In this document: positions 15,438-27,194 of the stretch, in pieces
Numbering within the stretch: the first letter of the stretch is position 1
How the letters are laid out: every line of letters begins with the position of its first letter
From: a virus
Reading direction: 5' to 3' (one strand)
Virus record (IMG/VR): IMGVR_UViG_3300044974_000700
Span: 1 to 64,000 of that record
DNA: 64,000 bases
Notes under the pieces: generated by a model
What the model was told of the DNA's origin: nothing
The model's input: only the letters and a program-made list of their open reading frames with translations
Database searches by the model: none
Position numbers and translations under genes: made by a program

Positions 15438-15442
15438 ATACT

Positions 15443-15448
15443 AACTAT
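15443..15448 (-). promoter_or_regulatory. -10 box of a leaderless promoter
   Basis: TATAGT followed by six bases and the ATG at 15437 on the minus strand. Confidence 0.5.
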
Positions 15449-15470
15449 ATCATATCTGTATATCTATAAG

Positions 15471-15545
15471 TAGGCCTAATCGGATTTGAACCGATACTCG
15501 ATTGTATATAAGACAATTGCTTTCACCAGATTAAGCTATAGGCCC
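15471..15545 (-). tRNA. tRNA-Ile (anticodon TAT)
   Basis: Cloverleaf on the minus strand: acceptor GGGCCTA/TAGGCCT, D stem GCTT/AAGC, anticodon stem ATTGT/ACAAT with loop CTTATAT, T stem ATCGG/CCGAT with loop TTCAAAT. Reads AUA, a codon frequent in AT-rich genes. CCA is not encoded. Confidence 0.9.
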
Positions 15546-15617
15546 GTATATTTGTATTAATAAACCGCATATACAGGTTATTATGGCTATTGCTGTTATG
15601 GTGATAATTAGTCTCAT
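15531..15617 (-). CDS. Possible small membrane peptide
   Basis: 28 residues, almost entirely hydrophobic (IITITAIAIITCICGLLI), with AAAGGCGGG upstream. Its end overlaps the tRNA-Ile gene, which lowers confidence. Confidence 0.3.
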   Translation of the reverse strand: MRLIITITAIAIITCICGLLIQIYGPIA

Positions 15618-15726
15618 TTTTAGTTTCCCGCCTTTTCTTGTATATATATAATATATATTATATAGTGATATCTGGGAATATTAGATTTTAGGAAAGCCCC
15701 CCTACCCCCCAAAAAGAAAAAATCTT

Positions 15727-15804
15727 TTAAGAGATAGAGAAGCTACATCTGGTGTATATTGAGTTCCAGTGTAAGCCCCCACAAACCGAACATAAGTGTA
15801 ACAT
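15727..15804 (-). CDS. Possible 25-residue peptide
   Basis: Starts at ATG 15804 directly on the stop of the TauD-like gene (TAAATG) and has LCSVCGGLHW with a CxxC pair. Too short to be sure. The rest of 15,618-15,800 is AT-rich with a run of Cs (15,697-15,709). Confidence 0.25.
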   Translation of the reverse strand: MLHLCSVCGGLHWNSIYTRCSFSIS

Positions 15805-16716
15805 TTATGCTTTATCAAAGTCAATAGGTAGGGTACGATAATATACATCGAACGTGCCTTCCCAATTATTTTTAGTTGCCCACCATCCACGAAATTTTCT
15901 TTTCCTAGAATCAAAACCACCAGTTATTGAATGAGCCATTTTAAAAAGATCTGGTATTAGCAAATCACCTTCTTGCCATTCATGAATAAGACATATATCA
16001 TCTGTTTCGCTAGCAAGAGATTTTGCAACCTTCATCTTAGTTTGCATTGTTTGTTTTGCATACATTGCAATTTGTTCTTTAGTTGGCTTTTCTCCATTTA
16101 TGTTATCTAAACAATTTATTTTTCCAAGATGATTAGGCTGAACACCTAGATTTGCAATCCTATAAGTTTTTTTACCAGTTAAAAAATGGTCAACTGCTAT
16201 TGGTCTATTTGCAATCCATTCATCTCCGATTTTCCAATGTTTGTGTGGATCTGCAAATTCATTTAATCCATGTCCTTCTTTTGGTTCATGATAAACTTTT
16301 ATATATGCAGATAGTGCAAACTCTTTGTCTTCATCCGATAAGTTTTCAAAATATTTATCCATTGGATAAAATAAAGTTCTTCCGTTTTTAGAATCTTCTT
16401 CTTTAAATGTGTGCATATTCCAGCTAGCTGCACATATAGGATTTTCCCAATACGAATGCTCAACATGCCAGTTTAATATACAATGATCATTAGTTTGTTT
16501 TTCTAAAGTGTTATGATCTTCATTATATGCATTAGCAACCTTCCAACCAATTTTTTCTCCCAGCCCCACCATTAATCTTTTTTGTTCTTCAAAACTTACA
16601 AATGCATTTCTAAAAGCTATGAGACCTTGATTAATAAATATATCTCTGTATTTTTCCCAATCGTTTAGGATATTATCTACTCCAGGAAATTCTATTGGTT
16701 TAATAAGTGTTGGCAT
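15805..16716 (-). CDS. TauD/TfdA-like 2OG dioxygenase
   Basis: 303 residues, close to the TauD length. N-terminal GLIAFRNAFVSFEEQKRLMVG is the typical TauD start. Iron ligands: HVE in NWHVEHSYWENP, with Glu in place of Asp, and a distal His in KMAHSITGGF; the Arg for 2-oxoglutarate follows in SRKRKFRGWWA. TauD releases sulfite from taurine, but family members act on many small molecules. A leaderless promoter (TATAAT six bases before ATG) drives it. First gene of the minus-strand block, divergent from the early region. Confidence 0.85.
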   Translation of the reverse strand: MPTLIKPIEFPGVDNILNDWEKYRDIFINQGLIAFRNAFVSFEEQKRLMVGLGEKIGWKVANAYNEDHNTLEKQTNDHCILNWHVEHSYWENPICAASWNMHTFKEEDSKNGRTLFYPMDKYFENLSDEDKEFALSAYIKVYHEPKEGHGLNEFADPHKHWKIGDEWIANRPIAVDHFLTGKKTYRIANLGVQPNHLGKINCLDNINGEKPTKEQIAMYAKQTMQTKMKVAKSLASETDDICLIHEWQEGDLLIPDLFKMAHSITGGFDSRKRKFRGWWATKNNWEGTFDVYYRTLPIDFDKA

Positions 16717-16977
16717 GTATTTATTATACTATTTTATAATTCTAGTTGACTACTTTTTAGATTTCTAAAAATGTTAATATATTTTTATGATGTATGATGC
16801 ATATCTAATACAAAACGGACATTTCGGATAGTGCGCCCATAATTGTGGCGTATCTCACATGAATTTTGTGTGATGTCAATCACAATGTCCGAATTGTTTG
16901 CATTTTCAACTTGCAATTTGTCAGACCCCCATGATAGTATTTTATTATTAGATAGAAAAAAGAAAGGAAGTTTTATA
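16717..16977. promoter_or_regulatory. Divergent control region left of the early genes
   Basis: Holds the leaderless promoter of the TauD-like gene (minus, TATAAT at 16723-16728) and the first early promoter (plus, 16919). Between them are CGGACATTTCGGA at 16816, its partial inverse ATGTCCG at 16884, and the palindrome TGTGATGTCAATCACA at 16870. These are candidate operator sites. Confidence 0.55.
16919..16940 (+). promoter_or_regulatory. RecA-NDp/PafBC-like promoter, variant
   Basis: TGTCAGAC, 8 bases, TAGTAT. Fits TGTCRGxx-N8-TAnnnT; drives the gene at 16978. Confidence 0.6.
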
Positions 16978-17154
16978 ATGACTTCACTAACACTAGAGCA
17001 AAAGATTATCAAGGCTGCTCACCTTATCGCTGACGGAAAGCCAGTATCTTTCCGAGGTGCTTCATTTGATACATACATGAAAGTAGAACGCCTTGCTAAT
17101 CGTATCAAGCAAGAGCGTGAGTTTCCTCAATGCCCATGCGGTGAGTGTGATTAA
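16978..17154 (+). CDS. Small early protein with C-terminal Cys cluster
   Basis: 58 residues, AAAGGAAG before the ATG. Helical (TLEQKIIKAAHLIADGKPV, YMKVERLANRIKQE) and ends with FPQCPCGECD, a possible metal site. First gene of the plus-strand early block. Not recognised. Confidence 0.7.
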   Translation: MTSLTLEQKIIKAAHLIADGKPVSFRGASFDTYMKVERLANRIKQEREFPQCPCGECD

Positions 17155-17172
17155 CCTCACACAATAGACACA

Positions 17173-17180
17173 GCGTGTCG
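17173..17180 (+). repeat. GCGTGTCG repeat, copy 1 of 6
   Basis: GCGTGTCGGCTTGATAA in the gap after the first early gene. Other copies: 17457, 18073, 18210 (inverted), 18567, 19838 (inverted). Confidence 0.6.
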
Positions 17181-17242
17181 GCTTGATAAAATTGAATAAA
17201 TCTGAAATAATACTAACTAACTAAAAGAAAGAAGGTAGCATA

Positions 17243-17440
17243 ATGAGTGCTAATCTATACAATGTCGAAAGCCTACTAGTAGGGAAGACCTATCGTAGCC
17301 GCTCCGTAGAGGGCGAAATAGTAGAGGCTGAAAAGCACCCTAAAGCGGTATGGTATGCGGACGCTGAGGCGTATCGTGTGCGTATTCGCAAGAGTAGCGG
17401 AGGTTATACCTACCGCAGCGTAGCGGTGAGTGTGGCATAA
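17243..17440 (+). CDS. Early protein, 'LLVGxxYR' family
   Basis: 65 residues. Similar along its length to the protein at 18,633: both have YxxExLLVGxxYRxxS, then GEI with AEK and a terminal VAVSVA/IAVKVA strand. A small beta-barrel is likely. More GC-rich than the surrounding genes. Function unknown. Confidence 0.75.
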   Translation: MSANLYNVESLLVGKTYRSRSVEGEIVEAEKHPKAVWYADAEAYRVRIRKSSGGYTYRSVAVSVA

Positions 17441-17456
17441 GTCACACCACGCCTAC

Positions 17457-17465
17457 GGCGTGTCG
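17457..17465 (+). repeat. GCGTGTCG repeat, copy 2
   Basis: GGCGTGTCGCCTTGATAA, directly before the promoter at 17475 and after the inverted stretch ACGCC. Confidence 0.6.
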
Positions 17466-17474
17466 CCTTGATAA

Positions 17475-17496
17475 TGTCGGTCATGTGTGATAGTCT
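17475..17496 (+). promoter_or_regulatory. RecA-NDp/PafBC-like promoter
   Basis: TGTCGGTC, 8 bases, TAGTCT; drives the short genes from 17541. Confidence 0.6.
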
Positions 17497-17540
17497 AACG
17501 ACATAACAAAATAAGAACTAACGAAAAGGAATAAAAGAAA

Positions 17541-17684
17541 ATGGATAGATACTTACTAATAGAATTAGGCTCAGACGGAATTGCCTTTGAAACCGCTCAA
17601 TTTGATTTCTACGCTTCATGGCTAGGAATTGGAATTGCTATCGTGTCAGTGGTAGCGTATAAGATTTATAAGAACAGAAAGTAA
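17541..17684 (+). CDS. Single-span membrane peptide
   Basis: 47 residues behind AACGAAAAGGAATAAAAG. Residues 20-43 form one membrane segment (FYASWLGIGIAIVSVVAYKI) followed by basic residues KNRK, so the C-terminus likely faces the cytoplasm. Early expression and small size resemble superinfection-exclusion peptides, but that is a guess. Confidence 0.65.
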   Translation: MDRYLLIELGSDGIAFETAQFDFYASWLGIGIAIVSVVAYKIYKNRK

Positions 17685-17697
17685 AGGAATAAAAATA

Positions 17698-17868
17698 ATG
17701 TACTCATTTGATAACACTAATACAGAATACAAGTATGAAAGTATTCAACACGGATACGCCATAGAATACTATGATGAAGAAGAACCGCTAGAAATCTCAC
17801 TAGAGGAAATGCTAGAATTAGAAGATGAAGAAATGGAATTGGAAGAAATGGGTGAGATTTATGCCTAA
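17698..17868 (+). CDS. Very acidic small protein
   Basis: 56 residues, about one third Asp/Glu (LEDEEMELEEMGE). AAAGGAATAAAAATA precedes the ATG. Acidic small phage proteins often mimic DNA or bind basic host proteins; no specific evidence here. Overlaps the next gene by eight bases. Confidence 0.65.
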   Translation: MYSFDNTNTEYKYESIQHGYAIEYYDEEEPLEISLEEMLELEDEEMELEEMGEIYA

Positions 17869-17959
17869 GAATAAATGCTCTATGTGTTATGGTAGGGGCG
17901 TTATCTATGTAGGTAATCGCTATGAATACACAATAGAACCTTGTGAGTGTAAAGCATGA
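17861..17959 (+). CDS. Zinc-knuckle peptide, DnaJ-type CxxCxGxG
   Basis: 32 residues: CSMCYGRGVIY and EPCECK give two Cys pairs as in half of a DnaJ zinc finger. A paralogue lies at 19,029 (CDTCYGKGWLF, EPCDCN). Likely metal-binding; role unknown. Confidence 0.65.
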   Translation: MPKNKCSMCYGRGVIYVGNRYEYTIEPCECKA

Positions 17960-18069
17960 ATAGATTACTCACTAGCCTTGTTCAATTAGCCCTTGTCGTA
18001 CCCGCCCTAATTCTAGGGCGCATGGCTTGGGAAATGCTAAAAGAAGATGTGAGAGAACTCACAAAATAA
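17956..18069 (+). CDS. Single-span membrane peptide
   Basis: 37 residues. LVQLALVVPALILGRMAW spans the membrane, followed by a charged tail KEDVRELTK. ATGA overlap with the preceding gene indicates coupling. Confidence 0.6.
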   Translation: MNRLLTSLVQLALVVPALILGRMAWEMLKEDVRELTK

Positions 18070-18072
18070 TAC

Positions 18073-18081
18073 GGCGTGTCG
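18073..18081 (+). repeat. GCGTGTCG repeat, copy 3
   Basis: GGCGTGTCGCCTTGACA just upstream of the DnaA-box cluster. Confidence 0.6.
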
Positions 18082-18099
18082 CCTTGACAAAAGCTGATC

Positions 18100-18235
18100 C
18101 GCCCGCAGTCTTTTGCGGGCGTTATCCACAGGTTTATGCACAGCTGTGGAAATCCCCGAAATTTTGAGCGTAAGTTATCCACATGACCTAAATCACAAAA
18201 ATAGTTTTGCGACACGCCCGAGATTTGGGCAAAAA
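18100..18235. other. Candidate replication origin (DnaA-box cluster)
   Basis: Two perfect DnaA boxes TTATCCACA (18122-18130, 18175-18183), a one-mismatch box TTATGCACA (18134-18142) and an inverted near-box TGTGGAAAT (18145-18153) fall within 62 bases. A strong hairpin CGCCCGCA/TTGCGGGCG (18101-18121) sits on the left and the inverted repeat copy CGACACGCC (18210) on the right. No gene lies here (18,070-18,289). The box density is what an oriC-type site used by host DnaA would show. Confidence 0.65.
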
Positions 18236-18257
18236 TGTCAGACCCCTATGCTAGACT
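18236..18257 (+). promoter_or_regulatory. RecA-NDp/PafBC-like promoter, variant
   Basis: TGTCAGAC, 8 bases, TAGACT; nearly the same as the promoter at 16919; drives the gene at 18290. Confidence 0.6.
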
Positions 18258-18289
18258 AAAGTCATCAAAATAAAGAAAGGAAAACTTAA

Positions 18290-18421
18290 ATGAATAAAAT
18301 TTGTTGCTTCTGCGAAATAGAATTATCTGATGAAATTAAATTTTGCCCTAATTGCCTAGAATACAAAGGCGTAATGACTATTAAAGATTTTGAAACTTAC
18401 TATGGAGAAAGGATTTACTAA
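18290..18421 (+). CDS. Zinc-ribbon protein
   Basis: 43 residues after AAAGGAAAACTTAA. CCFCEIEL and FCPNCLEY form a CxxC...CxxC zinc ribbon. Small early zinc ribbons often bind nucleic acid or polymerase. Not assignable further. Confidence 0.7.
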   Translation: MNKICCFCEIELSDEIKFCPNCLEYKGVMTIKDFETYYGERIY

Positions 18422-18422
18422 A

Positions 18423-18545
18423 ATGGGATTTATTGAATTTGCTAGAATTGACGAAAATGGCGTTGAGTGGGTTAATCTTGAAAACGCTACTAATGACGAA
18501 TTACTAGATTTTGAAATTGCCCTCTTTCAAGAGGGGGCTTTGTGA
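18423..18545 (+). CDS. Hypothetical acidic protein
   Basis: 40 residues, start two bases after the previous stop, with GGAAAGG... upstream. Acidic, beta-alpha (FIEFARIDENGVEWVNLENA). Not recognised. Confidence 0.55.
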   Translation: MGFIEFARIDENGVEWVNLENATNDELLDFEIALFQEGAL

Positions 18546-18566
18546 TTTAATTCACACCGCTTAATC

Positions 18567-18575
18567 GGCGTGTCG
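18567..18575 (+). repeat. GCGTGTCG repeat, copy 4
   Basis: GGCGTGTCGATTTGATAAT, 58 bases before the gene at 18633. A TAAAAT box follows at 18600. Confidence 0.6.
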
Positions 18576-18632
18576 ATTTGATAATCCCGCCAAAATTTGC
18601 TAAAATCGCTCCCATAAATGAAAGGAAAACTA

Positions 18633-18848
18633 ATGAGAACTTACTCTATTGAGGATTTACTAGTAGGACAATTCTATCGCCCTACTTCTTATGCCCGCCG
18701 ATTTTTCGGTGGAGAAATAAATTTCGCTGAAAAGCGAGATGATGTCTGGGTAGGCACGGATTATCAAGCCTATTCAATTCGCTATCGTGTCGGTCAGTCA
18801 GTAAAAAATGAATGGGCTACCATAGCGGTAAAAGTCGCCGACTTATAA
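18633..18848 (+). CDS. Early protein, 'LLVGxxYR' family
   Basis: 71 residues from ATG 18633 (AAAGGA at 18621 fits this start better than the ATG at 18618). Paralogue of the 65-residue protein at 17,243: YSIEDLLVGQFYRPTS, GEINFAEK, YRVGQSVKNEWATIAVKVA. Function unknown. Confidence 0.75.
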   Translation: MRTYSIEDLLVGQFYRPTSYARRFFGGEINFAEKRDDVWVGTDYQAYSIRYRVGQSVKNEWATIAVKVADL

Positions 18849-18849
18849 A

Positions 18850-18871
18850 TGTCGGTGGCTTCCACTATAAT
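18850..18871 (+). promoter_or_regulatory. RecA-NDp/PafBC-like promoter
   Basis: TGTCGGTG, 8 bases, TATAAT. Leader AACGAAAGGAAAACTAAA then ATG 18899. Confidence 0.75.
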
Positions 18872-18898
18872 CCAATTACTAACGAAAGGAAAACTAAA

Positions 18899-19027
18899 AT
18901 GGATTTGATCGAATTTCGCAATTATGTAAAGGCTGAGCGTGAAGCAACACGCCAGCAAAACCTCACCGCAATTTTGTCGGTGGCTTCTGCTACAATTACA
19001 GACAACAACGAACGAAAGGAAAACTAA
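18899..19027 (+). CDS. Small early protein reading through the next promoter
   Basis: 42 residues. The start MDLIEFRNYVKAEREATRQQ is helical. The last 15 codons coincide with the next promoter (18975) and its leader, so ERKEN is simply the translated AACGAAAGGAAAAC leader. Either the stop drifted downstream or the overlap is regulatory. Confidence 0.55.
   Translation: MDLIEFRNYVKAEREATRQQNLTAILSVASATITDNNERKEN
18975..18996 (+). promoter_or_regulatory. RecA-NDp/PafBC-like promoter inside the preceding gene
   Basis: TGTCGGTG, 8 bases, TACAAT; leader AACGAAAGGAAAACTAAA then ATG 19029. Confidence 0.7.
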
Positions 19028-19028
19028 A

Positions 19029-19187
19029 ATGAAAGTAATTCACACTCTATCTTTTGACTGTGACACCTGCTATGGAAAAGGCTGGTTATTCTATGGCGGA
19101 AATGAGGATTATAATGTTGAACCTTGTGACTGTAATCCTAATTCTGATTTTGATGGCTCACTATTCACGAACGGAGAAAACGAATAA
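19029..19187 (+). CDS. Zinc-knuckle protein, DnaJ-type
   Basis: 52 residues. CDTCYGKGWLFYGG and EPCDCNPN give the CxxCxGxG...CxC plan, matching the peptide at 17,861. TAATG overlap couples it to the next gene. Confidence 0.65.
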   Translation: MKVIHTLSFDCDTCYGKGWLFYGGNEDYNVEPCDCNPNSDFDGSLFTNGENE

Positions 19188-19393
19188 TGTATAAAATAAC
19201 TGTTGCCTATGATGAAAACGCTCCCCACTATAATCAACAATTTTCAGATGAACTAGAGGCTCACAAAAGTTTTGCTAGTTATGTGGATTGGGGATTTGCT
19301 AACGAATACTCAACTGTAAATCTTTTTACACCTAACGGAAAATGCTATACAAAAATTTTCTATCGTGAAGGTAGAAGGGTGGTTGAAAAATAA
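19187..19393 (+). CDS. Hypothetical protein
   Basis: 68 residues, beta-alpha-beta-like (MYKITVAYDENAP, FSDELEAHKSFASYV, STVNLFTPNGKCYTKIF). Overlaps genes at both ends. Not recognised. Confidence 0.65.
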   Translation: MYKITVAYDENAPHYNQQFSDELEAHKSFASYVDWGFANEYSTVNLFTPNGKCYTKIFYREGRRVVEK

Positions 19394-19581
19394 TGATGAC
19401 ACGCAAAGACTATGTTGCTACCGCAGAAATTCTGCGGTATGTATCAGATAAAACTCACCCTGCTGTATTTTCTAAAATGGTTGTAGATTTTGCGGAGATG
19501 TTCGCAAAAGATAATCCAAAATTTGACGCAACAAAATTTTATTCCGCAAGTAATTATAAAATTCCAAGTTTTAGGAGTTGA
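19393..19581 (+). CDS. Conserved small actinophage protein
   Basis: 62 residues. The plan 'DYVATAEILRYV ... VVDFAEMFAKDNPKFDATKF' is one I recognise from many actinophages (short helix, then FAxMxAxDNPxFDxxxF). Function not known to me. May start at either of two adjacent ATGs. Confidence 0.7.
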   Translation: MMTRKDYVATAEILRYVSDKTHPAVFSKMVVDFAEMFAKDNPKFDATKFYSASNYKIPSFRS

Positions 19582-19582
19582 A

Positions 19583-19729
19583 ATGAAATTACCAAATAAA
19601 GAAAGAATAAAAAAAGTTTTGGAAATTCGCCGCAGTAATGCGGCGCAGCCAATTCCTAGTAAAAAAGTTTATTCACGAAAACGAAAACATAAAAAAACCG
19701 CAGTCGGAAAATCTATGAATTGGGATTAG
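19583..19729 (+). CDS. Small basic protein
   Basis: 48 residues, strongly basic (KERIKKVLEIRRSN, KKVYSRKRKHKKTAVGK), AGGAG before the ATG. Charge suggests nucleic-acid binding. No fold recognised. Confidence 0.6.
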   Translation: MKLPNKERIKKVLEIRRSNAAQPIPSKKVYSRKRKHKKTAVGKSMNWD

Positions 19730-19747
19730 TTGAAATTTCAACTAAGC

Positions 19748-19790
19748 GCCCGCAAAAGACTGTGGGGGCCAAAAGCTCGTTACGTCAAGT
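19748..19790 (+). repeat. Intergenic module GCCCGCA-TGTGGGGGC-TTACGTCA, copy 1
   Basis: CCCGCAAAAGACTGTGGGGGC followed by AAGCTCGTTACGTCAAG. The same order recurs at 21900, 22749, 23994 and 25702, each time between a gene end and a RecA-NDp-like promoter. Confidence 0.7.
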
Positions 19791-19863
19791 CAGAAATATG
19801 CTGGAAATTTGTGAGGTTTATCACAAAAAATAATTTCCGACACGCCGATACTCAAATAGAAAT

Positions 19864-19885
19864 TGTCAGTAATCTAATGTATAAT
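19864..19885 (+). promoter_or_regulatory. RecA-NDp/PafBC-like promoter
   Basis: TGTCAGTA, 8 bases, TATAAT; leader AACGAAAGGAAAAAA then ATG 19916. Confidence 0.7.
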
Positions 19886-19915
19886 TCCAACCATAACAAC
19901 AACGAAAGGAAAAAA

Positions 19916-20167
19916 ATGACAGACACAACTAACTGGGCTAAATACCCATTCACCGTAGATGGTGTGGAATTCGTATCACTACTAGACCCTAATGGCTCTA
20001 TGTATCAACAGGTATCTCGCATTCCTGCTTCTCTATTTACTACTATGAACGAGGGCGCTATCCGTGAAATCGTCGGTAAAGTTTCTCTAATGTCTAAGTC
20101 TGAAATTCAAGCAGAACTAGACCGTGTAAATGACGGATACTCTCAGGCTTATTTAGCCTTAGCCTAA
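19916..20167 (+). CDS. Hypothetical early protein
   Basis: 83 residues from ATG 19916, chosen for its leader; a longer TTG frame would read through the promoter. Contains FTVDGVEFVSLLDPNGSM and IREIVGKVSLMSKSEIQAEL. Not recognised. Confidence 0.7.
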   Translation: MTDTTNWAKYPFTVDGVEFVSLLDPNGSMYQQVSRIPASLFTTMNEGAIREIVGKVSLMSKSEIQAELDRVNDGYSQAYLALA

Positions 20168-20169
20168 AA

Positions 20170-20191
20170 TGTCGGTGGGCTAGTGTATAAT
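20170..20191 (+). promoter_or_regulatory. RecA-NDp/PafBC-like promoter with inverted repeat
   Basis: TGTCGGTG, 8 bases, TATAAT. A perfect inverted repeat GTGGGCTAG/CTAGCCCAC brackets the -10 box. Leader AACGAAAGGGAATT then ATG 20223. Confidence 0.75.
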
Positions 20192-20222
20192 CTAGCCCAC
20201 TAACAACAAACGAAAGGGAATT

Positions 20223-20495
20223 ATGTTATCAACTGCTTCTGCTCTACTTGAGGCTACTCAAGAGGGAATAATTGGCGATGAACAAATGGAACTTGCTTCT
20301 TTTATTGTAAATGCTCGCCACGAACTAGACCAAGAACAATTTGCTAAAGCGATGTTTATGTATGCTACTGCTATTGCTTCATGCGTAACTGATAAAGTTA
20401 CTAAAGTGTTACTAACTGAAACACAATTTAGAGAACTAATTGAAACTATTGACGAAATGGAAACAATGTCTAACGAGGTGTTAAATGGGAAGTAA
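20223..20495 (+). CDS. Hypothetical helical protein
   Basis: 90 residues, helical throughout (STASALLEATQEGI, IVNARHELDQEQFAKAMFMY, FRELIETIDEMETMSNEV). Overlaps the next gene by 11 bases. Not recognised. Confidence 0.65.
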   Translation: MLSTASALLEATQEGIIGDEQMELASFIVNARHELDQEQFAKAMFMYATAIASCVTDKVTKVLLTETQFRELIETIDEMETMSNEVLNGK

Positions 20496-20748
20496 TTTTG
20501 CTACTGATTTAGCTGACTATGATTTAGGATTAGATTTATCTACTGCCTTAGAGATACACTTAACTTCTAATCATTACCCGCCCATTCCTAAAACTATGGT
20601 GCTTCCTTGTATTGAGGCGCTTGAGGCTTATTGGGAGGATGAAACTGATCGTGAGATACCTATGCCCGAAGGCGTATCCTACAAAGGTGGGAATACCGCA
20701 CCAGCATGGGCTATTATTGAACAACACCACCTAGAGGCGTGGCTATAA
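20485..20748 (+). CDS. Hypothetical acidic protein
   Basis: 87 residues, acidic; HLTSNHYPPIPKTMVLPCIE and MPEGVSYKGGNTAPAWAIIE are reminiscent of conserved actinophage small proteins, but I cannot name the family. Coupled to the gene before it. Confidence 0.65.
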   Translation: MGSNFATDLADYDLGLDLSTALEIHLTSNHYPPIPKTMVLPCIEALEAYWEDETDREIPMPEGVSYKGGNTAPAWAIIEQHHLEAWL

Positions 20749-20752
20749 AAAA

Positions 20753-20774
20753 TGTCGGTGGGGTGGTGTATAAT
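20753..20774 (+). promoter_or_regulatory. RecA-NDp/PafBC-like promoter
   Basis: TGTCGGTG, 8 bases, TATAAT, with GGGTG/CACCC around the -10. Leader AACGAAAGGAAACAA then ATG 20804. Confidence 0.75.
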
Positions 20775-20803
20775 CACCCTGTCAAACTAACGAAAGGAAA
20801 CAA

Positions 20804-20950
20804 ATGCTAGAAATCGGACAAACCTATACAACCACTACGAGTGGAATTGTTGGAATTATCAAGGCGATTGATAATCACCCAAGTGGAGTAAATCGTATTC
20901 TCCTTGATGTAAATGGCGCAGAACGCTGGACAAGCGCACCTGCTAACTAA
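20804..20950 (+). CDS. Small beta-rich protein
   Basis: 48 residues; LEIGQTYTTTTSGIVGIIKA, IDNHPSGVNRILLDVNG, with a terminal strand. The 'GxxY' start resembles the LLVGxxYR proteins at 17,243 and 18,633, suggesting a shared small barrel. Function unknown. Confidence 0.6.
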   Translation: MLEIGQTYTTTTSGIVGIIKAIDNHPSGVNRILLDVNGAERWTSAPAN

Positions 20951-20978
20951 CAACTAAATAGGCAGGGCTCACCTAAAA

Positions 20979-21000
20979 TGTCGGTGGGCTCTGCTATAAT
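20979..21000 (+). promoter_or_regulatory. RecA-NDp/PafBC-like promoter
   Basis: TGTCGGTG, 8 bases, TATAAT; leader AACGAAAGGAAATCAA then ATG 21033. Confidence 0.75.
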
Positions 21001-21032
21001 AAAGAACTAAAACCATAACGAAAGGAAATCAA

Positions 21033-21455
21033 ATGGCTAGAAATGGAAAAGCGATAAATGTAAAAATCGCTACAACTAAAGTAATCAAGGCACTAGAGGG
21101 TGCGTTGGCTAAGTTAGAAAAAGAGTTTGCTTCACAAGAGGCAAATGAGGCTAAGCACGACAAGGCAGTAAAGGCATGGAATAAAGAGGTTGCTAAACTT
21201 GCTATGTCTGCTATCAACAAGGCAGAGGATTTGTCTGCTCATACAAGATACAATGGCGAAATCCAAGTATCTTTCTCACTACCTAAAAACTCTATTGAAA
21301 TACCTGCTGAACCTAAGAAAGACTATGTGTCTATCCATGAGTGGCAGTATCGTGAGAATAAAGAGGAAATTGAGAACGCAATTCGTATTCTCAAGATGAC
21401 AGATGAGGAAGTCGTAAGCACTTCTACTTACAACGCTATCGCTCGTTATCTCTAA
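21033..21455 (+). CDS. Conserved actinophage coiled-coil protein
   Basis: 140 residues. The start ARNGKAINVKIATTKVIKAL and a helical region with Ala/Lys/Glu repeats (EGALAKLEKEFASQE, NKEVAKLAMSAINKAE) match a family I have seen in many actinophages. The second half has EWQYRENKEEIENAIRIL and EVVSTSTYNAIARYL. Function unknown. Confidence 0.72.
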   Translation: MARNGKAINVKIATTKVIKALEGALAKLEKEFASQEANEAKHDKAVKAWNKEVAKLAMSAINKAEDLSAHTRYNGEIQVSFSLPKNSIEIPAEPKKDYVSIHEWQYRENKEEIENAIRILKMTDEEVVSTSTYNAIARYL

Positions 21456-21461
21456 TAAAAT

Positions 21462-21488
21462 GGGGGCTAGACAAAATCTAGCCCCCTA
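21462..21488 (+). terminator. Rho-independent-type hairpin
   Basis: GGGGGCTAGA/TCTAGCCCCC with a five-base loop, right after the stop at 21455. It is followed by a TAGAAT box (21491), so it may also overlap a weak promoter. Confidence 0.6.
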
Positions 21489-21582
21489 TGTTAGAATACT
21501 CTAACGCAAAAGAACCCTGACCTGAGTAAGTCAAGTGATAAACTGCTCAACCAATTATCCCTACTAACAGAAAGTAAAAAAA

Positions 21583-21840
21583 ATGCGTAATAGATTTAGA
21601 ATTGAAATCTATGATGAAAATAAGTTAAACGATTTAACTCTTTACTCAGAACAAGGCGTAGATAAAGAATACTTAACTGAAATGGTGTTTTCTAATTTAT
21701 CTCAATTTTCTGGTAAAGTAAAAGCATATGTCTATGATGAATTAAAAAAGAAAAAGACAGTTGCTTTATTAATACCTGAAGAAACTGTAACTAAATATAA
21801 ACCAAAACAATTAACTAGAATTGAGTTAGGTTTAATTTAA
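21583..21840 (+). CDS. Hypothetical protein
   Basis: 85 residues, beta-alpha plan (FRIEIYDENKLNDLTLYSEQ, YLTEMVFSNLSQFSGKVKAY, TVALLIPEETVTKYK). AGAAAGTAAAAAA precedes the ATG. Not recognised. Confidence 0.6.
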   Translation: MRNRFRIEIYDENKLNDLTLYSEQGVDKEYLTEMVFSNLSQFSGKVKAYVYDELKKKKTVALLIPEETVTKYKPKQLTRIELGLI

Positions 21841-21843
21841 AAT

Positions 21844-21890
21844 AATTGGGGCGGGTTTGAACTGTGTAATCATCTAGATCCCCGCCCCAA
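21844..21890 (+). terminator. Large GC-rich hairpin
   Basis: TTGGGGCGGG pairs with CCCGCCCCAA across a 26-base loop, followed by TCAAATTTTG. Confidence 0.65.
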
Positions 21891-21899
21891 TCAAATTTT

Positions 21900-21940
21900 G
21901 CCCGCAAAGACTGTGGGGGCACAAAGCTCTTTACGTCAAA
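21900..21940 (+). repeat. Intergenic module, copy 2
   Basis: GCCCGCAAAGACTGTGGGGG then AAGCTCTTTACGTCAAA; precedes the promoter at 21970. Confidence 0.7.
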
Positions 21941-21969
21941 TTATAAAAATCCCTTAAATTAATTGTAAA

Positions 21970-21991
21970 TGTCAGTGGCACCTGTTATAAT
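21970..21991 (+). promoter_or_regulatory. RecA-NDp/PafBC-like promoter
   Basis: TGTCAGTG, 8 bases, TATAAT; leader AGCGAAAGGAAAAGT then ATG 22015. Confidence 0.75.
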
Positions 21992-22014
21992 AATGGCCTA
22001 GCGAAAGGAAAAGT

Positions 22015-22731
22015 ATGTTAAAACGCTCGAAAGATAGAAAGGTCGCTAATGCCGTCTCCCCTAATGGAAAAACCCCAACAATTGCCAACACTTTTGGATT
22101 GCCTGCTGGAAAGAATTTCTCGTGTCCTGGTGCCACAAGTATTTGTGAAAGCGTATGCTACGCAGGAAAACTTGAAAAAGTCTACAAGGGAGTAAAAGCC
22201 GTACTCTTACACAATTGGGAATTGCTACGCAATGCAGACCATGACACTATGGTATCCCTAATTGATAGCATGATTGTGGAATTCAAGGCGGAATGCGATA
22301 AGCGTTCTGCAGATAAACTATTCCGCATTCACTGGGATGGCGATTTCTTTAATGATACTTATGCATATGCGTGGAAGACAGTAATCGAAAGCCATAAGGA
22401 TGTTCAATTTTGGGTATATACTCGTGTCTCTTCTGCCGCCGTCATTCTAAAAGATATTTCTAACCTATCTCTTTATTATTCTACCGATGATGAGAATAAA
22501 GATATTGCTGCAGGCCTACGCAATGAACACGGTACACGTCTTGCATATTTAGGAAAAACTTTTGCAGTCACCGAAACTACTATGAAAGAATTAACGGGTA
22601 AAGTGGGTGCAAAGTGTCCTGAAAATAATAAATCAATTCCGCTAATATCTACTAATGGTAGCGCATGTGTATCATGCGGATTGTGTGTATTTAATAAAGC
22701 AGATATTCGATTTTCTGCAAGCAAAAAATAA
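22015..22731 (+). CDS. GP88-family phage protein
   Basis: 238 residues. Matches the mycobacteriophage 'gene product 88' family: NTFGLPAGKNFSCPGATSIC followed by ESVCYAGK, giving Cys residues as in CPGAxxxCxxxCYA. Later come LFRIHWDGDFFND and FWVYTRVSSAAVIL and a C-terminal CVSCGLCVFNK. Two Cys clusters suggest metal or Fe-S binding. The biochemical role is not established as far as I know. It has its own strong promoter. Confidence 0.85.
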   Translation: MLKRSKDRKVANAVSPNGKTPTIANTFGLPAGKNFSCPGATSICESVCYAGKLEKVYKGVKAVLLHNWELLRNADHDTMVSLIDSMIVEFKAECDKRSADKLFRIHWDGDFFNDTYAYAWKTVIESHKDVQFWVYTRVSSAAVILKDISNLSLYYSTDDENKDIAAGLRNEHGTRLAYLGKTFAVTETTMKELTGKVGAKCPENNKSIPLISTNGSACVSCGLCVFNKADIRFSASKK

Positions 22732-22748
22732 GATCGGCAGCGAAAGCT

Positions 22749-22790
22749 GCCCGCAAGAACTGTGGGGGCGCCGAGCTCTTTACGTCAAGT
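22749..22790 (+). repeat. Intergenic module, copy 3
   Basis: GCCCGCAAGAACTGTGGGGG then GAGCTCTTTACGTCAAG; precedes the promoter at 22869. Confidence 0.7.
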
Positions 22791-22868
22791 CCAAAACACC
22801 CCTGGATTTTGTGATAATGCTCACAGATGTCCAATTTGCCCCATCTTACATCTAATCTATTGCCAAAT

Positions 22869-22890
22869 GTCGGTGGGGTAGTGTATAATT
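22869..22890 (+). promoter_or_regulatory. RecA-NDp/PafBC-like promoter
   Basis: TGTCGGTG, 8 bases, TATAAT; leader AATGAAAGGAAATAAATTC then ATG 22925. Confidence 0.75.
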
Positions 22891-22924
22891 CAGATTCAAT
22901 CTAACAATGAAAGGAAATAAATTC

Positions 22925-23935
22925 ATGGCTCACAACCTAGAAATGAATGGCAACGATGTTGCTTTTGCCCTACGTGGCACACCTGCTTGGCATAATCTTG
23001 CCAATCGTATCTTCTCACAAGATGAAGACGTATCAACTCAACTAATGCTAGATGAGGCTAAACTTTCCAATTGGGATGTTCGCTTATCTCCATTATCCGA
23101 TTTTGTTCCTGCTGATTGGAATGAAACTTCAGATTCACAATTAGTTATTAGAACTAATCCATTTACAAATGGAACTGATGTTTTATCTACTGTAGGCTCA
23201 CGATATAAAGTGGTTCAGAATGAAGAACTATTTTCATTCGCTGATAATATCCTAGATGGCGATTCTCGCTGTGCTTGGGAATCTGCTGGTTCATTAAAGA
23301 ATGGTAAAGTCGTTTTCGGCTCCCTTACTGTTCCCCGTGAAATGGTATTAGACCCACAAGGTGCTAACGATACAACAAAATTGTATCTAATCGTTTGGAC
23401 ATCTCACGATGGTTCTGTCGCTGTTCAAGCAGCAATCACGCCTGTGCGTGTTGTATGCCAAAACACTTTGAATCTCGCAATGCGCTCTGCTAAGCAATCT
23501 TTCAAGATTCGCCATACTCAGACCGCTGAGGGTAAGATTCAAATCGCTCGTGAAACTCTTGGTCTAACTCTTGGATACTTTGATGCGTTCGAGAAAGAGG
23601 CTCAGGAATTGTTCAAGTCAGAAATTACTGATAAGCAATTTTCTGAACTTATCAAGACTATTTATCCTAAGCCTGCGGAAGATGCTTCCAAATTGGCTTT
23701 AACTAAGTGGGAGAATAAAGTTGTCTTGCTTGATGACCTTTATCATAATTCTCCAACGAATGCTAATATCAAGGGAACTAAGTGGGGCGCATTCAACGCT
23801 CTAACTGAACGCCTTGATTATTTCCGACCAACTCGGAAAAATAATTCAGAATCTAAGTGGGCTTCTGCTTCAGGTTTTGACCCGATTATTACTGCTGAGA
23901 AAAATAAAATTCTTCAAGTTGTAAAATCATTCTAA
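22925..23935 (+). CDS. DUF932 phage/plasmid-like protein
   Basis: 336 residues from ATG 22925, chosen because AAAGGAA lies ten bases upstream; an ATG at 22907 overlaps that site. The N-terminus (MAHNLEMNGNDVAFALRGTP, AWHNLANRIF) and GSRYKVVQNEELFSFADNIL, ITPVRVVCQNTLNLAM and the C-terminal KWGAFNALTERLDYF region are the DUF932/TIGR03299 signature. The family is common in phages and plasmids; its role is not settled. One of the best expressed-looking early genes by promoter quality. Confidence 0.9.
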   Translation: MAHNLEMNGNDVAFALRGTPAWHNLANRIFSQDEDVSTQLMLDEAKLSNWDVRLSPLSDFVPADWNETSDSQLVIRTNPFTNGTDVLSTVGSRYKVVQNEELFSFADNILDGDSRCAWESAGSLKNGKVVFGSLTVPREMVLDPQGANDTTKLYLIVWTSHDGSVAVQAAITPVRVVCQNTLNLAMRSAKQSFKIRHTQTAEGKIQIARETLGLTLGYFDAFEKEAQELFKSEITDKQFSELIKTIYPKPAEDASKLALTKWENKVVLLDDLYHNSPTNANIKGTKWGAFNALTERLDYFRPTRKNNSESKWASASGFDPIITAEKNKILQVVKSF

Positions 23936-23937
23936 AG

Positions 23938-23963
23938 AATGGGGCCCCGCAAGGGGCCCCTCC
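23938..23963 (+). terminator. Rho-independent-type hairpin
   Basis: GGGGCCCC-GCAA-GGGGCCCC followed by TCCTCTTTG, three bases after the DUF932 stop. Confidence 0.75.
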
Positions 23964-23993
23964 TCTTTGATCTAATTTGACAAAGCTGCAAAA

Positions 23994-24045
23994 CGCCCGC
24001 AGAAGCTAAAGGCAGAAAATGTGTTTTACGTCACATTTTAAAAAT
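23994..24045 (+). repeat. Intergenic module, copy 4 (degenerate)
   Basis: GCCCGCAGAAGCTAAAGGC followed by TTTTACGTCACATTTT; precedes the promoter at 24066. Confidence 0.6.
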
Positions 24046-24065
24046 CCTCTAAAACCCTGGACTTT

Positions 24066-24087
24066 TGTCAGTGAGGTCCGCTATAAT
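24066..24087 (+). promoter_or_regulatory. RecA-NDp/PafBC-like promoter
   Basis: TGTCAGTG, 8 bases, TATAAT; leader AACGAAAGGAATAAA then ATG 24115. Heads an operon of five overlapping or abutting genes. Confidence 0.75.
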
Positions 24088-24114
24088 ACTCCACATAACA
24101 ACGAAAGGAATAAA

Positions 24115-24585
24115 ATGGAAACAGTAACAAATGATATGTATAACCCACATTCATTGGTAACTCTTAAGAAGATTATCAATACAGAAAGCGGAGATGTACA
24201 GTTTGAACTATATAAGGTTACAGAACTAGAATCAGTTCTAGATGAAATGACTCGTCGCAATAATCTTATTTCACAACGTATCGAAGCACAAGAAAAACAA
24301 ATTGGTCAGATTATAGATAACTTAACTGCACAGGGTTGGTATAACCCTAATTATGAGAAGTCAGAAGTTTTGTCAGACCTATGTGATATTCTTGGCCATG
24401 AACCAAAGCAAGAAATTCGTATTACTGCAACCGTGCAGGTTGAAGTTGTATATGACTGCCCACTTGATGAGGTTGAAGACTTTGACGCAAGATATTTCTT
24501 GCAAGATGTACTTACAGTTGATGCATATAATGGAGATGTCATTGTTGAGTCATTCGATGTTGAAGATGCGGACGTGAACTGGTAA
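24115..24585 (+). CDS. Hypothetical early protein with coiled coil
   Basis: 156 residues from ATG 24115. Residues 45-75 are a coiled coil (LDEMTRRNNLISQRIEAQEK). The C-terminal half is acidic and beta-rich (IRITATVQVEVVYDCPLDEV ... DVIVESFDVED). Start of a coupled operon. Not recognised. Confidence 0.65.
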   Translation: METVTNDMYNPHSLVTLKKIINTESGDVQFELYKVTELESVLDEMTRRNNLISQRIEAQEKQIGQIIDNLTAQGWYNPNYEKSEVLSDLCDILGHEPKQEIRITATVQVEVVYDCPLDEVEDFDARYFLQDVLTVDAYNGDVIVESFDVEDADVNW

Positions 24586-24797
24586 TGTATTATCAATTAC
24601 AGGCACCCACTAGCGCAGCCTGCAAGGCTGCCTATTGGGAGGCAGAGTTTTCAGGGCTTGACCCATATTGGCTTGAATCTAATGTATTTGAATTAGGAAC
24701 AGGAAGCATTGAAAAAGTTTCTGCCTTGATTTCCAAATATAATCTTGATATACTAGTTGAATCAGATTATCAACCAACTGGTTACACAAGGAGGTAG
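24585..24797 (+). CDS. Hypothetical protein
   Basis: 70 residues, TAATG overlap. YYQLQAPTSAACKAAYWEAE, then LISKYNLDILVESD. Not recognised. Confidence 0.6.
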   Translation: MYYQLQAPTSAACKAAYWEAEFSGLDPYWLESNVFELGTGSIEKVSALISKYNLDILVESDYQPTGYTRR

Positions 24798-24798
24798 T

Positions 24799-24963
24799 AT
24801 GGATTACAAAGACGGTTTTGAAGACGGAGTTAAGTTTACTCGTGAAGTCATCATTGCTAATATTCGTAAATGGGCTGAGGATTCTATTCTTGGAGAAGAA
24901 GGAGCAATTATGGATAGCATTGCAGATAAAATCGAATTTGGGACATTAGACAATGACCTCTGA
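24799..24963 (+). CDS. Small helical protein
   Basis: 54 residues from ATG 24799, AAGGAGG six bases upstream, the strongest Shine-Dalgarno in the operon. FEDGVKFTREVIIANIRKW and AIMDSIADKIEFG form two helices; this plan occurs in other actinophages. Confidence 0.65.
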   Translation: MDYKDGFEDGVKFTREVIIANIRKWAEDSILGEEGAIMDSIADKIEFGTLDNDL

Positions 24964-25174
24964 GGATCTTACAATAGAATGGATTAAATGTGATTCTTGC
25001 TCTGCCCGTGCAGCTTGGGTTGCACGTGGTACTAGTGGTGAGCTTACATTTTGTGGACACCATTTAAATAAGAATAAGCAGGCCCTTGACAGTTGGGCCT
25101 ATGAAATTATAGAATTGGGTAAAGAAGAACTACCTAAAAAACAAACTAGACGAAAGGCGGTACAAAATGGGTGA
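24953..25174 (+). CDS. DUF7455-like zinc-binding protein
   Basis: 73 residues. CDSCSARAAWVARGTSGELT followed by FCGHHLNKN gives the CxxC...CxHH pattern of the actinobacterial/actinophage DUF7455 family. Overlaps both neighbours. Likely a zinc-binding helper protein; function unknown. Confidence 0.75.
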   Translation: MTSEDLTIEWIKCDSCSARAAWVARGTSGELTFCGHHLNKNKQALDSWAYEIIELGKEELPKKQTRRKAVQNG

Positions 25175-25571
25175 CAGAGCAAACTTTGTATTTGTTCAAC
25201 CAAGCGGAGAAACCATTGTTTTATACGGACACTGGGCAGGACATGGCATGTTAGAAAAATTAGGTGAGGCTGTAGCAAAAGCACAGCCACGCTGGACGGA
25301 CCCTTCATATGCTACACGAATTGCTATCAGTCAAATGATTGGCGACGGATGGGGCATGGAAACTGGATGGGGCCTGCAGGTCAATGAGATATCTGATAAT
25401 GAGCACAAGATTCCTGTGATTAATTGGATAGACCAAACAATGTCTCTGCATGAAGAGGATTCATTCTATAACGAATCTAATAAGGTCCGTGGAATGAAGA
25501 ACGACGCTATATTTACCATGGACTTGAGAACGTTTGTAGAGAAATACACAGACGCCAAGATTTTGGTATAA
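25167..25571 (+). CDS. Conserved actinophage protein (MGDRANFVF family)
   Basis: 134 residues. The start MGDRANFVFVQPSGETIVLY and GHWAGHGMLEKL is a family I recognise from many actinophages. Middle TRIAISQMIGDGWGMETGWG, end FTMDLRTFVEKY. Function unknown. The stop codon lies inside the -10 box of the small RNA. Confidence 0.8.
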   Translation: MGDRANFVFVQPSGETIVLYGHWAGHGMLEKLGEAVAKAQPRWTDPSYATRIAISQMIGDGWGMETGWGLQVNEISDNEHKIPVINWIDQTMSLHEEDSFYNESNKVRGMKNDAIFTMDLRTFVEKYTDAKILV

Positions 25572-25572
25572 T
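25567..25572 (+). promoter_or_regulatory. Extended -10 promoter of the small RNA
   Basis: TGGTATAAT overlaps the stop codon of the preceding gene; predicted start near 25579. It lacks the TGTCRGTG element. Confidence 0.55.
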
Positions 25573-25578
25573 ATTAAT

Positions 25579-25703
25579 AATGAGGTGCCGCTACTAGCGA
25601 TTCCGCAAGTGGTTAACTAAAGCAGCGTTTACTTAAATTCCTTTCGTTTGGCTAGCAGCCTCATGTTAATAGGGCCCCTGGAATCCAGGGGCCCTTCCTT
25701 TTG
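25579..25703 (+). ncRNA. Candidate small RNA with anti-leader sequence and terminator
   Basis: No open frame of note here. Predicted RNA of about 120 bases: outer stem ATGAGG/CCTCAT (25580-25585, 25659-25664), inner hairpins CGCTACTAGCG and CCGCAAGTGG, then an open stretch TTCCTTTCGTT (25638-25648). That stretch is the exact complement of AACGAAAGGAA, the leader of at least nine early genes. A perfect terminator GGGCCCCTGGA/TCCAGGGGCCC with a T-rich tail ends it at about 25700. A trans-acting regulator of those leaders is inferred; 16S rRNA anti-Shine-Dalgarno mimicry explains seven of the eleven bases. Confidence 0.6.
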
Positions 25704-25746
25704 CCCGTAGTTTGTGAGGGTAGCAAAAGCTTGTTACGTTGTCAAG
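25702..25746 (+). repeat. Intergenic module, copy 5 (degenerate)
   Basis: GCCCGTAGTTTGTGAGGGTAG, then AAGCTTGTTACGTTGTCAAG; precedes the promoter at 25820. Confidence 0.6.
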
Positions 25747-25819
25747 CCAAAATCCCCTAAAATTGTGAGGTTTTGATCACAAACCTTACACTACATGTGA
25801 GGTTTATCATATAGACATT

Positions 25820-25841
25820 TGTCAGTGGGTGGATGTATAAT
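25820..25841 (+). promoter_or_regulatory. RecA-NDp/PafBC-like promoter
   Basis: TGTCAGTG, 8 bases, TATAAT; leader AACGAAAGGAAATAAT then ATG 25867. Heads the last early operon. Confidence 0.75.
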
Positions 25842-25866
25842 AATGCCAATAACGAAAGGAAATAAT

Positions 25867-26616
25867 ATGCCAAACTGGGTATATAACGGATTAACTATAG
25901 AGGGAAATCCACAATTAGTCAATACATTGGTAGCACAATTAAATAAGCCATTTGTTCAAGTTCATGATTCATGGAACATGGAAAATGGTCAAATGGAAAA
26001 AAAGCAAACTACATATCCTAATCCTGTATTTGCATTTCATAATATCTATAATCATTTACAAGCAAGTATTACTGAATATGAATATCTTCAGCAACCCGAC
26101 CATAAATTACCAATTGCAGAACAAATGAAATTTGCAACAAATGATTGGTATTCATTTAATGTTCGTGAATGGGGAACAAAATGGGATGTTGCTGTATCTT
26201 CAGATAATGAATATCCTGATACATATATTGAAGGACCTACTCCTAATGGAGAGAATCTAGTTGTATATTATAATTTTAATACTGCTTGGTCTCCACCGTT
26301 CCCTGCCCTTGCAAAATTATCTGCACAATATCCAGCATTACTACTTACACTTAGTTATGAAGAAGAAACAGGTTGGGGTGGTGAATGTGAATTCCTACGT
26401 GGTGAAATGATATCTAATTCAGAATATGAAAGCATGTGTCGTGATTGTGAAGCAACAGATACATTAGATTATTGTGAGAATGACTGTGGCCAAATCTGTT
26501 CTAAATGTAATTGGCTTGGGGAGGCAGACCTAGAATGTGTCAAAGAATGTCAGACCCATAAGATATACTTGGATTCCGAGCATGTCCCTGATTATAGAAT
26601 GGAGCAAATCAAATGA
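25867..26616 (+). CDS. YubB/DUF1281-like ferredoxin-fold protein
   Basis: 249 residues from ATG 25867. The start MPNWVYNGLTIEGNP and later WGTKWDVAVSSDNE, FNTAWSPPFPALAKLSAQYP and LSYEEETGWGGECEF are the signature of the MPNWxxN family with a ferredoxin-like domain, common on phages and plasmids. The C-terminal 60 residues add a Cys-rich tail (CRDCEATDTLDYCENDC, CSKCNW), probably zinc-binding. Role unknown. Confidence 0.8.
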   Translation: MPNWVYNGLTIEGNPQLVNTLVAQLNKPFVQVHDSWNMENGQMEKKQTTYPNPVFAFHNIYNHLQASITEYEYLQQPDHKLPIAEQMKFATNDWYSFNVREWGTKWDVAVSSDNEYPDTYIEGPTPNGENLVVYYNFNTAWSPPFPALAKLSAQYPALLLTLSYEEETGWGGECEFLRGEMISNSEYESMCRDCEATDTLDYCENDCGQICSKCNWLGEADLECVKECQTHKIYLDSEHVPDYRMEQIK

Positions 26617-26837
26617 GTTTCCTAGAAGAAGCCAACATTAACCAAATGGTTATTGATTATGAGATACAAGTAATATCAGAACATCTATTTGATGAATGGA
26701 TGAATTCTAATTTAGATGAAGGTTCATTTTATGCAGATTATCAATTTGCAGTAATGTGTGATTCTAAAGAGATTAAACAAGCATTTAATCAATTCTATAA
26801 TTTAAAGGAGGATGATGAACATTATGTTGGGTTATAA
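26613..26837 (+). CDS. Hypothetical acidic protein
   Basis: 74 residues, ATGA overlap with the gene before. Helical and acidic (FLEEANINQMVIDYEIQVIS, FNQFYNLKEDDEHY). Not recognised. Confidence 0.6.
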   Translation: MSFLEEANINQMVIDYEIQVISEHLFDEWMNSNLDEGSFYADYQFAVMCDSKEIKQAFNQFYNLKEDDEHYVGL

Positions 26838-26973
26838 ATTAAAAGATGTAGAAGAAATGGTTGAAGGTTTATTGAATGTACATGAATCTTTACCTGATTC
26901 TAGGAATAAAGAAGAAGTTTGGTTAGCCGCCGACTTTTTAATTGGATTAATGGAAGAGGGGCATGTTCAATAA
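26815..26973 (+). CDS. Hypothetical small acidic protein
   Basis: 52 residues. AAGGAGG lies just upstream; starts at 26812, 26815 or 26824 are all in frame, and 26815 is a compromise. YKLKDVEEMVEGLLNVHESL, then VWLAADFLIGLMEEG. TAATG joins it to the next gene. Confidence 0.55.
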   Translation: MNIMLGYKLKDVEEMVEGLLNVHESLPDSRNKEEVWLAADFLIGLMEEGHVQ

Positions 26974-27194
26974 TGGAATCAGAATACATTCGTAGAACTG
27001 GTCAACTGAAAGAATATATAAAGCTCCATATAATTAGTTTGGAACAAGACTTAGAGGGAATTGCTGAACAAATGGAAATGCTTGACCCTGAATCTAAGGA
27101 ATGTAAAGAACTAGATTTTGAATATAATCATTGGAGTGGGCAATTGCTTTCTGCCCGCCACATTTTGTCAGTGGCAGAGGATATACTAGGATGA
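26973..27194 (+). CDS. Coiled-coil protein
   Basis: 73 residues, one long helix pair: GQLKEYIKLHIISLEQDLEG and MEMLDPESKECKELDFEY. Its last 10 codons contain the promoter at 27166. Similar in plan to the following 91-residue protein (WSGQLLSARHIL versus WEGQLDALSHVY), suggesting duplication. Confidence 0.6.
   Translation: MESEYIRRTGQLKEYIKLHIISLEQDLEGIAEQMEMLDPESKECKELDFEYNHWSGQLLSARHILSVAEDILG
27166..27187 (+). promoter_or_regulatory. RecA-NDp/PafBC-like promoter inside a gene
   Basis: TGTCAGTG, 8 bases, TATACT, ending four bases before the ATG at 27191. It would give a near-leaderless transcript of the last early genes. Confidence 0.6.

Follow-up and report, generated by a model that had tools for sequence, protein, structure and literature searches.

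Promoters of the RecA-NDp type, known from mycobacteria and other actinobacteria (PMC8223512, PMC6789036), carry a TTGTCRGTG-type box in the −26 region and, eight bases downstream, a TAnnnT −10 element, but no −35 element. The −26 element is read by PafBC, a regulator activated by single-stranded DNA (ssDNA), which lets the sigma-A RNA polymerase use such promoters (PMC11804915; PMC10693628). Here, we analyze an array of promoters of this build in a virus. The window, that is, the whole stretch of DNA under study, spans 64 kb of the 85,553-base IMG/VR record IMGVR_UViG_3300044974_000700 (G+C content 35%), and the array occupies a block of small genes, the module. The initial annotation had read fourteen of these promoters as a PafBC regulon through which the phage couples its early genes to DNA damage. 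The box, the spacing, the −10 element and the absence of a −35 element do agree with a RecA-NDp/PafBC promoter, but that reading missed a second element, a palindrome of the CRP operator type. On the basis of sequence comparison, we consider host PafBC the likely reader of the module, joined in part by host CRP.

The motif TGTCRG-N10-TAnnnT (equivalent to TGTCRGTG-N8-TAnnnT) occurs 17 times between 16.9 and 27.2 kb, always on the + strand and never on the − strand, and a scan of the complete record found no box with a −10 motif outside this interval. When the spacing between the box and TAnnnT was varied from 0 to 19, a spacing of 8 gave 17 matches on the + strand and most other values gave 0–2, a sharp optimum that bears out the fixed distance claimed before; a spacing of 3 gave six matches, at least four of which were the same boxes paired with a second TAnnnT. 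Dinucleotide shuffles of the region, run as the count against shuffled sequence that had been suggested as a check, contained a mean of 0.09 and a maximum of 2 matches compared to the 17 observed, and the strict motif, present 11 times, was never found in them. A chance origin of the array was thus rejected. All fourteen of the sites listed initially exist, although one had been placed at 22869 while its box starts at 22868, and the total is 17 rather than 14. Ten of the fourteen read TGTC(A/G)GTG exactly, the others being the close variants TGTCAGAC (at 16919 and 18236), TGTCGGTC (17475) and TGTCAGTA (19864), and nine have TATAAT as the −10 element, with TAGTAT, TAGTCT, TAGACT, TACAAT and TATACT in the rest. 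The three sites that had not been listed (17644, 24371 and 26548) each lie inside the upstream gene. At most sites, a ribosome-binding site and then a start codon follow, 20–45 nucleotides past the −10 element. The motif-bearing region is the only + strand gene block in its surroundings, and we take it to be the early region of the phage.

The module’s DUF932 gene led to 80 related viral contigs, in which this architecture recurs. Across the 82 loci examined, the module strand carries the spacing-8 motif 1156 times and the opposite strand only twice, nearly always in these 80 contigs; 13 near-complete records (85–120 kb, the present one included) have 12–19 sites each, nearly all within the module and pointing the same way. 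When 2.9 million viral contigs were scanned without bias for the exact motif, most of the matches belonged to this phage lineage. A sequence logo of 592 unique sites displays A/T at positions −31 to −29, followed by TGTC, A/G and G, after which TG or a C-rich variant is usual; the −10 element is TATAAT, extended by T at −15 (56%) and G at −14 (71%), and there is almost no information at −36/−35, where a −35 element would be. This anatomy places the box at −26, the position that PafBC reads in mycobacteria. Start codons peak 24–35 nucleotides past the −10 element, with a second peak at 7–8 nucleotides that points to leaderless messages. One leaderless ATG, 7–8 bases past its −10 element (TATAATTCTCTTCATG), is found at 27194 in the window and at about 9197 in L031-L082, and is conserved in most relatives.

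Conservation was assessed in the 130 bases upstream of orthologous genes, with no box required beforehand. The box is kept at the promoter in 22868–22889, upstream of the DUF932 gene (22925–23935, + strand; PF06067, E 2e-56, scanned from 22934), in 79 of 80 orthologs, and in 74 of 74 at 20753–20774 (gene at 20804), 76 of 77 at 20979–21000 (gene at 21033) and 67 of 68 at 25820–25841 (gene at 25867, DUF1281_C). The unlisted site at 26548–26569, located in the 3′ end of gene 25867 and before the gene at 26613, is present in 28 of 28 orthologs and is an identical 22-mer in diverged relatives. Further upstream on the same strand, the box is retained at 16919–16940 (TGTCAGAC-N8-TAGTAT; gene at 16978) in 19/19 orthologs, at 18236–18257 (gene at 18290) in 14/16, at 18850–18871 (gene at 18900) in 8/10, at 19864–19885 (gene at 19916) in 22/23, and at 20170–20191 (gene at 20223) in 21/26. 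The promoter at 21970–21991 precedes a GP88 family gene (22015–22731, + strand; PF17338, E 3e-53) and is kept in 23/35 orthologs; those at 24066–24087 (gene at 24115), 27166–27187 (whose predicted +1 coincides with the leaderless ATG at 27194) and 17475–17496 (gene at 17541) are kept in 20/21, 40/58 and 4/12, respectively. As for the two other unlisted sites, TGTCAGTG-N8-TAAGAT at 17644–17665, inside gene 17541 and before the gene at 17698, is found in a relative too, and TGTCAGACCTATGTGATATTCT at 24371–24392, inside gene 24115, is near-identical in the relatives G001 and G004. Module genes that lack a box here lack it in their orthologs as well (0/78, 0/75, 0/74 and 0/73).

The presence of WhiB in all 13 phages examined (this record and 12 near relatives) points to an actinobacterial host; in the window, the whiB gene lies outside the module at 45109–45420 on the − strand. 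As a finer host marker, phage WhiB was rejected, being too divergent to place the host. The lead to a host order came from an actinobacterial contig with the exact motif, L237 of the metagenome-assembled genome Ki1-1-6m_bin-0456; otherwise, the genome-wide scan for the exact motif gave mostly chance matches. The genome sizes in this order of small-genome actinobacteria, 0.6–2.2 Mb, suggest the Nanopelagicales, and the phage’s own host is probably a small-genome actinobacterium. Nothing in this analysis supports a mycobacterial host.

The genome of L237 contains two adjacent WYL genes in the order nuclease, TrmI-like, WYL, WYL, TatA-like, TatC, with no Pup-proteasome gene interposed, and the WYL pair matches the solved PafB and PafC structures (E 2e-42 and 4e-29). 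A search for pafBC in candidate hosts, another check proposed at the outset, found a PafC relative in 61 of 61 genomes of the proposed order and the TrmI-PafB-PafC-TatC synteny in 29 of 30 loci, the thirtieth being cut by a contig end. In the host-order genome G013 (contig L351, positions 8705–13289), pafB and pafC are neighbors of trmI and tatC, and genes of the Pup proteasome do not intervene; PafBC thus appears to persist at this locus without them. Of the 29 usable recA loci of the order, 26 carry the same box at the same spacing upstream of the gene, abutting an SOS box (CGAACAGATGTTCG). Variants of the box such as TGTCAGCCCC, the CCC variant included, are common to host recA promoters and phages, and the phage promoter at 18975–18996 (TGTCGGTGGCTTCTGCTACAAT, + strand; gene at 19029) resembles the recA promoter of the order. 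The strict motif is rare in the genomes of this order, with 123 sites compared to 39 for a reversed control in 121 genomes. Plausible actinobacterial hosts with PafB, PafC and the same box at recA exist, in agreement with the PafBC reading. A WYL protein was present in none of the 13 phages, in which a phage-encoded PafB or PafC was sought and not found.

The second element of these promoters is TGTGA-N6-TCACA, the CRP operator, of which the record contains six exact copies, all of them in the module. The CRP-type palindromes are located on the + strand at 16869–16884 (TGTGATGTCAATCACA, 50 bp before box 16919), 17146–17161 (TGTGATTAACCTCACA), 18048–18063 (TGTGAGAGAACTCACA), 18541–18556 (TGTGATTTAATTCACA), 19810–19825 (TGTGAGGTTTATCACA, 54 bp before box 19864) and 22810–22825 (TGTGATAATGCTCACA, 58 bp before box 22868, a distance that is usually 54 in relatives), and sites with one mismatch at 17431–17446, 24020–24035 and 25796–25811 (44, 46 and 24 bp before boxes 17475, 24066 and 25820, respectively). 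In the relatives, TGTGA and TCACA are separated by six bases 459 times and by any other spacer 0–17 times. A CRP-type site with at most one mismatch lies 16–110 bases upstream in 365 of 662 unique promoters, and its distance to the box peaks at 33/34, 43/44, 53/54, 64/65 and 75/76 with a best period of 10.25–10.5 bp, so that across the family the sites are in helical phase with the promoter. Shifts by whole turns occur even inside single orthologous promoters (34 to 54, 24 to 34, 43 to 53, and 54 to 65). In relatives, the promoter orthologous to 20753 has the site 34 or 54 bp upstream and that orthologous to 24066 has it 43–44 bp upstream, often with a leaderless start, while the promoters corresponding to 20979, 18975 and 27166 almost never have one. 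Since a CRP-type site stands in helical phase at about half of the family’s promoters, control is probably not exerted by PafBC alone. CRP-family proteins are encoded in 24 of 24 host-order genomes tested and a CRP protein in 0 of 13 phages. The composite of PafBC box and CRP site is abundant among the viral matches listed and was not encountered in any of the 296 host-order genomes. A separate repeat, GGCGTGTCGnnTTGATAA, occurs in the first part of the module at 17169–17189, 17454–17474, 18070–18090 and 18564–18584, usually right after a CRP-type palindrome; its copies are perhaps degenerate boxes.

From the promoter architecture and its conservation, together with the genes and the recA promoter of the host order, we propose the following model of binding, activation and timing. 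The + strand module (16.9–28.7 kb) consists of small phage genes, most with a promoter of their own, built like the host’s PafBC damage promoters from a −26 box TGTCRG(TG/AC/CC), eight bases and an extended −10 element with no −35 element. Once activated by ssDNA, host PafBC would link the −26 box to sigma-A, a mechanism called sigma adaptation, and thereby recruit the host RNA polymerase. At about half of the family’s promoters, a host CRP dimer (GlxR type) bound upstream to a fixed side of the helix would act as a second activator. Both regulators would be borrowed from the host, neither being encoded by the phage. The ssDNA could stem from damage that the host had already suffered, or it could arise as the incoming linear DNA is processed or as the phage replicates. 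The virus would thus probably listen to two host alarm signals, DNA damage and cyclic AMP (cAMP).

These promoters share the box, N8, the −10 element and the missing −35 element with the RecA-NDp promoters, and their box is also that at recA of the proposed host order. They differ in forming arrays of 12–19 on a block of small genes, in a −10 element nearer to consensus, and in the CRP-type site of half the family’s members. To CRP/GlxR-activated promoters of the class I type they are similar in their upstream TGTGA-N6-TCACA and in distances that step by one helical turn, but in the phages this site is joined to a −26 PafBC-type box. As in phages controlled by SOS and LexA, phage genes would be coupled to the host damage response, but through activation at a −26 box instead of the release of a repressor; LexA control was rejected, as neither this genome nor any of the 80 relatives has an SOS box.

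Several points weigh against the proposal of a module read by PafBC and CRP. It is odd for the promoters of immediate-early genes to require ssDNA, and if the requirement is strict, expression of the module may begin somewhat after the time that ‘early’ implies. The phage −10 boxes are closer to consensus than that of host recA and have extended −10 features, which makes some promoter activity without PafBC plausible, and a few sites in the window have a partial −35 element. Many of the counts come from related, not independent, sequences. In the CRP-type sites, the 49/50 distance class is out of phase, falling between helical positions, and the window’s own sites are less tightly phased (24, 44, 46, 50, 54 and 58) than those of the family. 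The phage terminase has no real relative in 296 host-order genomes, the one match being trivial (28% over 188 residues), and a genome scan with the DUF932 alignment for host contigs found nothing; as neither scan yielded a host contig, the link to the host is indirect.

Among alternative explanations, the one that survives best, though we regard it as unlikely, is that an activator encoded by the phage, a small early protein or WhiB, reads the box, and that its likeness to the PafBC site reflects mimicry or ancestry. The phages do encode WhiB throughout, along with many small proteins without known families, and the box is far denser in them than in cell genomes. However, the whiB gene is not part of the module, a host order that possesses PafBC has the same box and variants at its recA promoter, and a box array is also found in a very distantly related phage with just a single small early gene in common.

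This second lineage is represented by three contigs, L179, L530 and L533, with 11, 13 and 5 boxes at spacing 8, mostly before small genes; in L530, 12 of the 13 form an array before such genes, and the array of L179 is located at about 100–4700. No homologs of the window’s early genes were found in the three contigs, but one small protein of the lineage matches an early protein of the relatives (44–49% identity), whereas the ribonucleotide reductase (RNR) is only 28% identical. They contain no CRP site. In L179 and in L530, a single SOS box with the same sequence as at host recA precedes one of the promoter boxes by about 30 bases. A cassette shared between the two phage lineages is possible, and for this reason we do not claim strict convergence.

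It is improbable that the promoters are constitutive extended −10 promoters of the housekeeping sigma-A in which the TGTC box is minor or otherwise used. A TG extended −10 with TATAAT is common, and the few partial −35 elements noted above would fit, but across the 80 contigs the box lies at a fixed distance from the −10 element and equals it in conservation, and a cousin that infects Streptomyces uses promoters of the TTGACA/TAGACT type instead. Less probable still is another host WYL activator of the −26 box: SiwR too acts through the −26 region (PMC10693628), but its site is described as a GGA triplet (PMC10693628), the only further WYL protein in G013, the one host-order genome scanned for this, has 735 residues, and the phage box is the box at recA. 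That the array is a decoy, soaking up PafBC-RNA polymerase to dampen host repair rather than driving phage genes, is barely credible, for although the strict motif is rare in hosts and each phage has 12–19 sites of the looser motif, at most boxes a −10 element, a ribosome-binding site and a start codon follow at fixed intervals, none of which would be required of a decoy.

The nearest cultured relatives are Streptomyces phages of the Stanwilliamsviridae, with terminase and RNR 65% and 67% identical to those of family members; searched as DNA, the module had no match among cultured phages. One of these phages, Karimac, has orthologs of GP88 and DUF932 (50% identity). Most of its small early genes also have a promoter each, but these promoters are of the −35/−10 kind (TTGACA-N18-TAAGCT, TAGACT type), and there is no box array. 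The class of promoter therefore differs between the branches, and the layout of one gene, one promoter is common to both. Use of the box by all actinophages was rejected, as matches were absent or few and scattered in five cultured Stanwilliamsviridae and in one mycobacteriophage. Tentatively, and with somewhat less than even confidence, we suggest from these comparisons that the lineage swapped the −35/−10 promoters of its early module for composites that read ssDNA through PafBC and cAMP through CRP, which would gate its takeover genes according to host damage and energy status, and that the second, distant lineage reached or borrowed the PafBC half.

Judged by titles and abstracts, no paper found on PafBC and phages appears to report phage promoters under PafBC; if the proposal of control by host PafBC and CRP is true, this would be the first phage, among those in the papers found, in which an entire block of genes is driven by the host’s PafBC damage pathway, and a promoter joining PafBC with CRP is not described in those papers. 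The phage promoters would then be natural reporters of when PafBC is active in infection, and they suggest a way in which the state of the host is sensed by phages that infect small-genome actinobacteria, organisms that in many cases are difficult to cultivate.

Other features of the window deserve mention. A 56-base repeat (GCCCGCAAAGACTGTGGGGGC...TTTACGTCAA) is present in four copies, at 19748–19803, 21899–21954, 22748–22803 and 23994–24049, shortly upstream of promoters, and could be a terminator or an operator. The phage carries a pyrimidine dimer DNA glycosylase (41548–42021; PF03013), an enzyme of ultraviolet damage repair. It also has an unusual load of modifying enzymes, with several 2OG-Fe(II)/TauD-type oxygenases and a Nol-like carbamoyltransferase encoded in 14622–16716, 29614–30213, 33657–37319 and 51280–52404.

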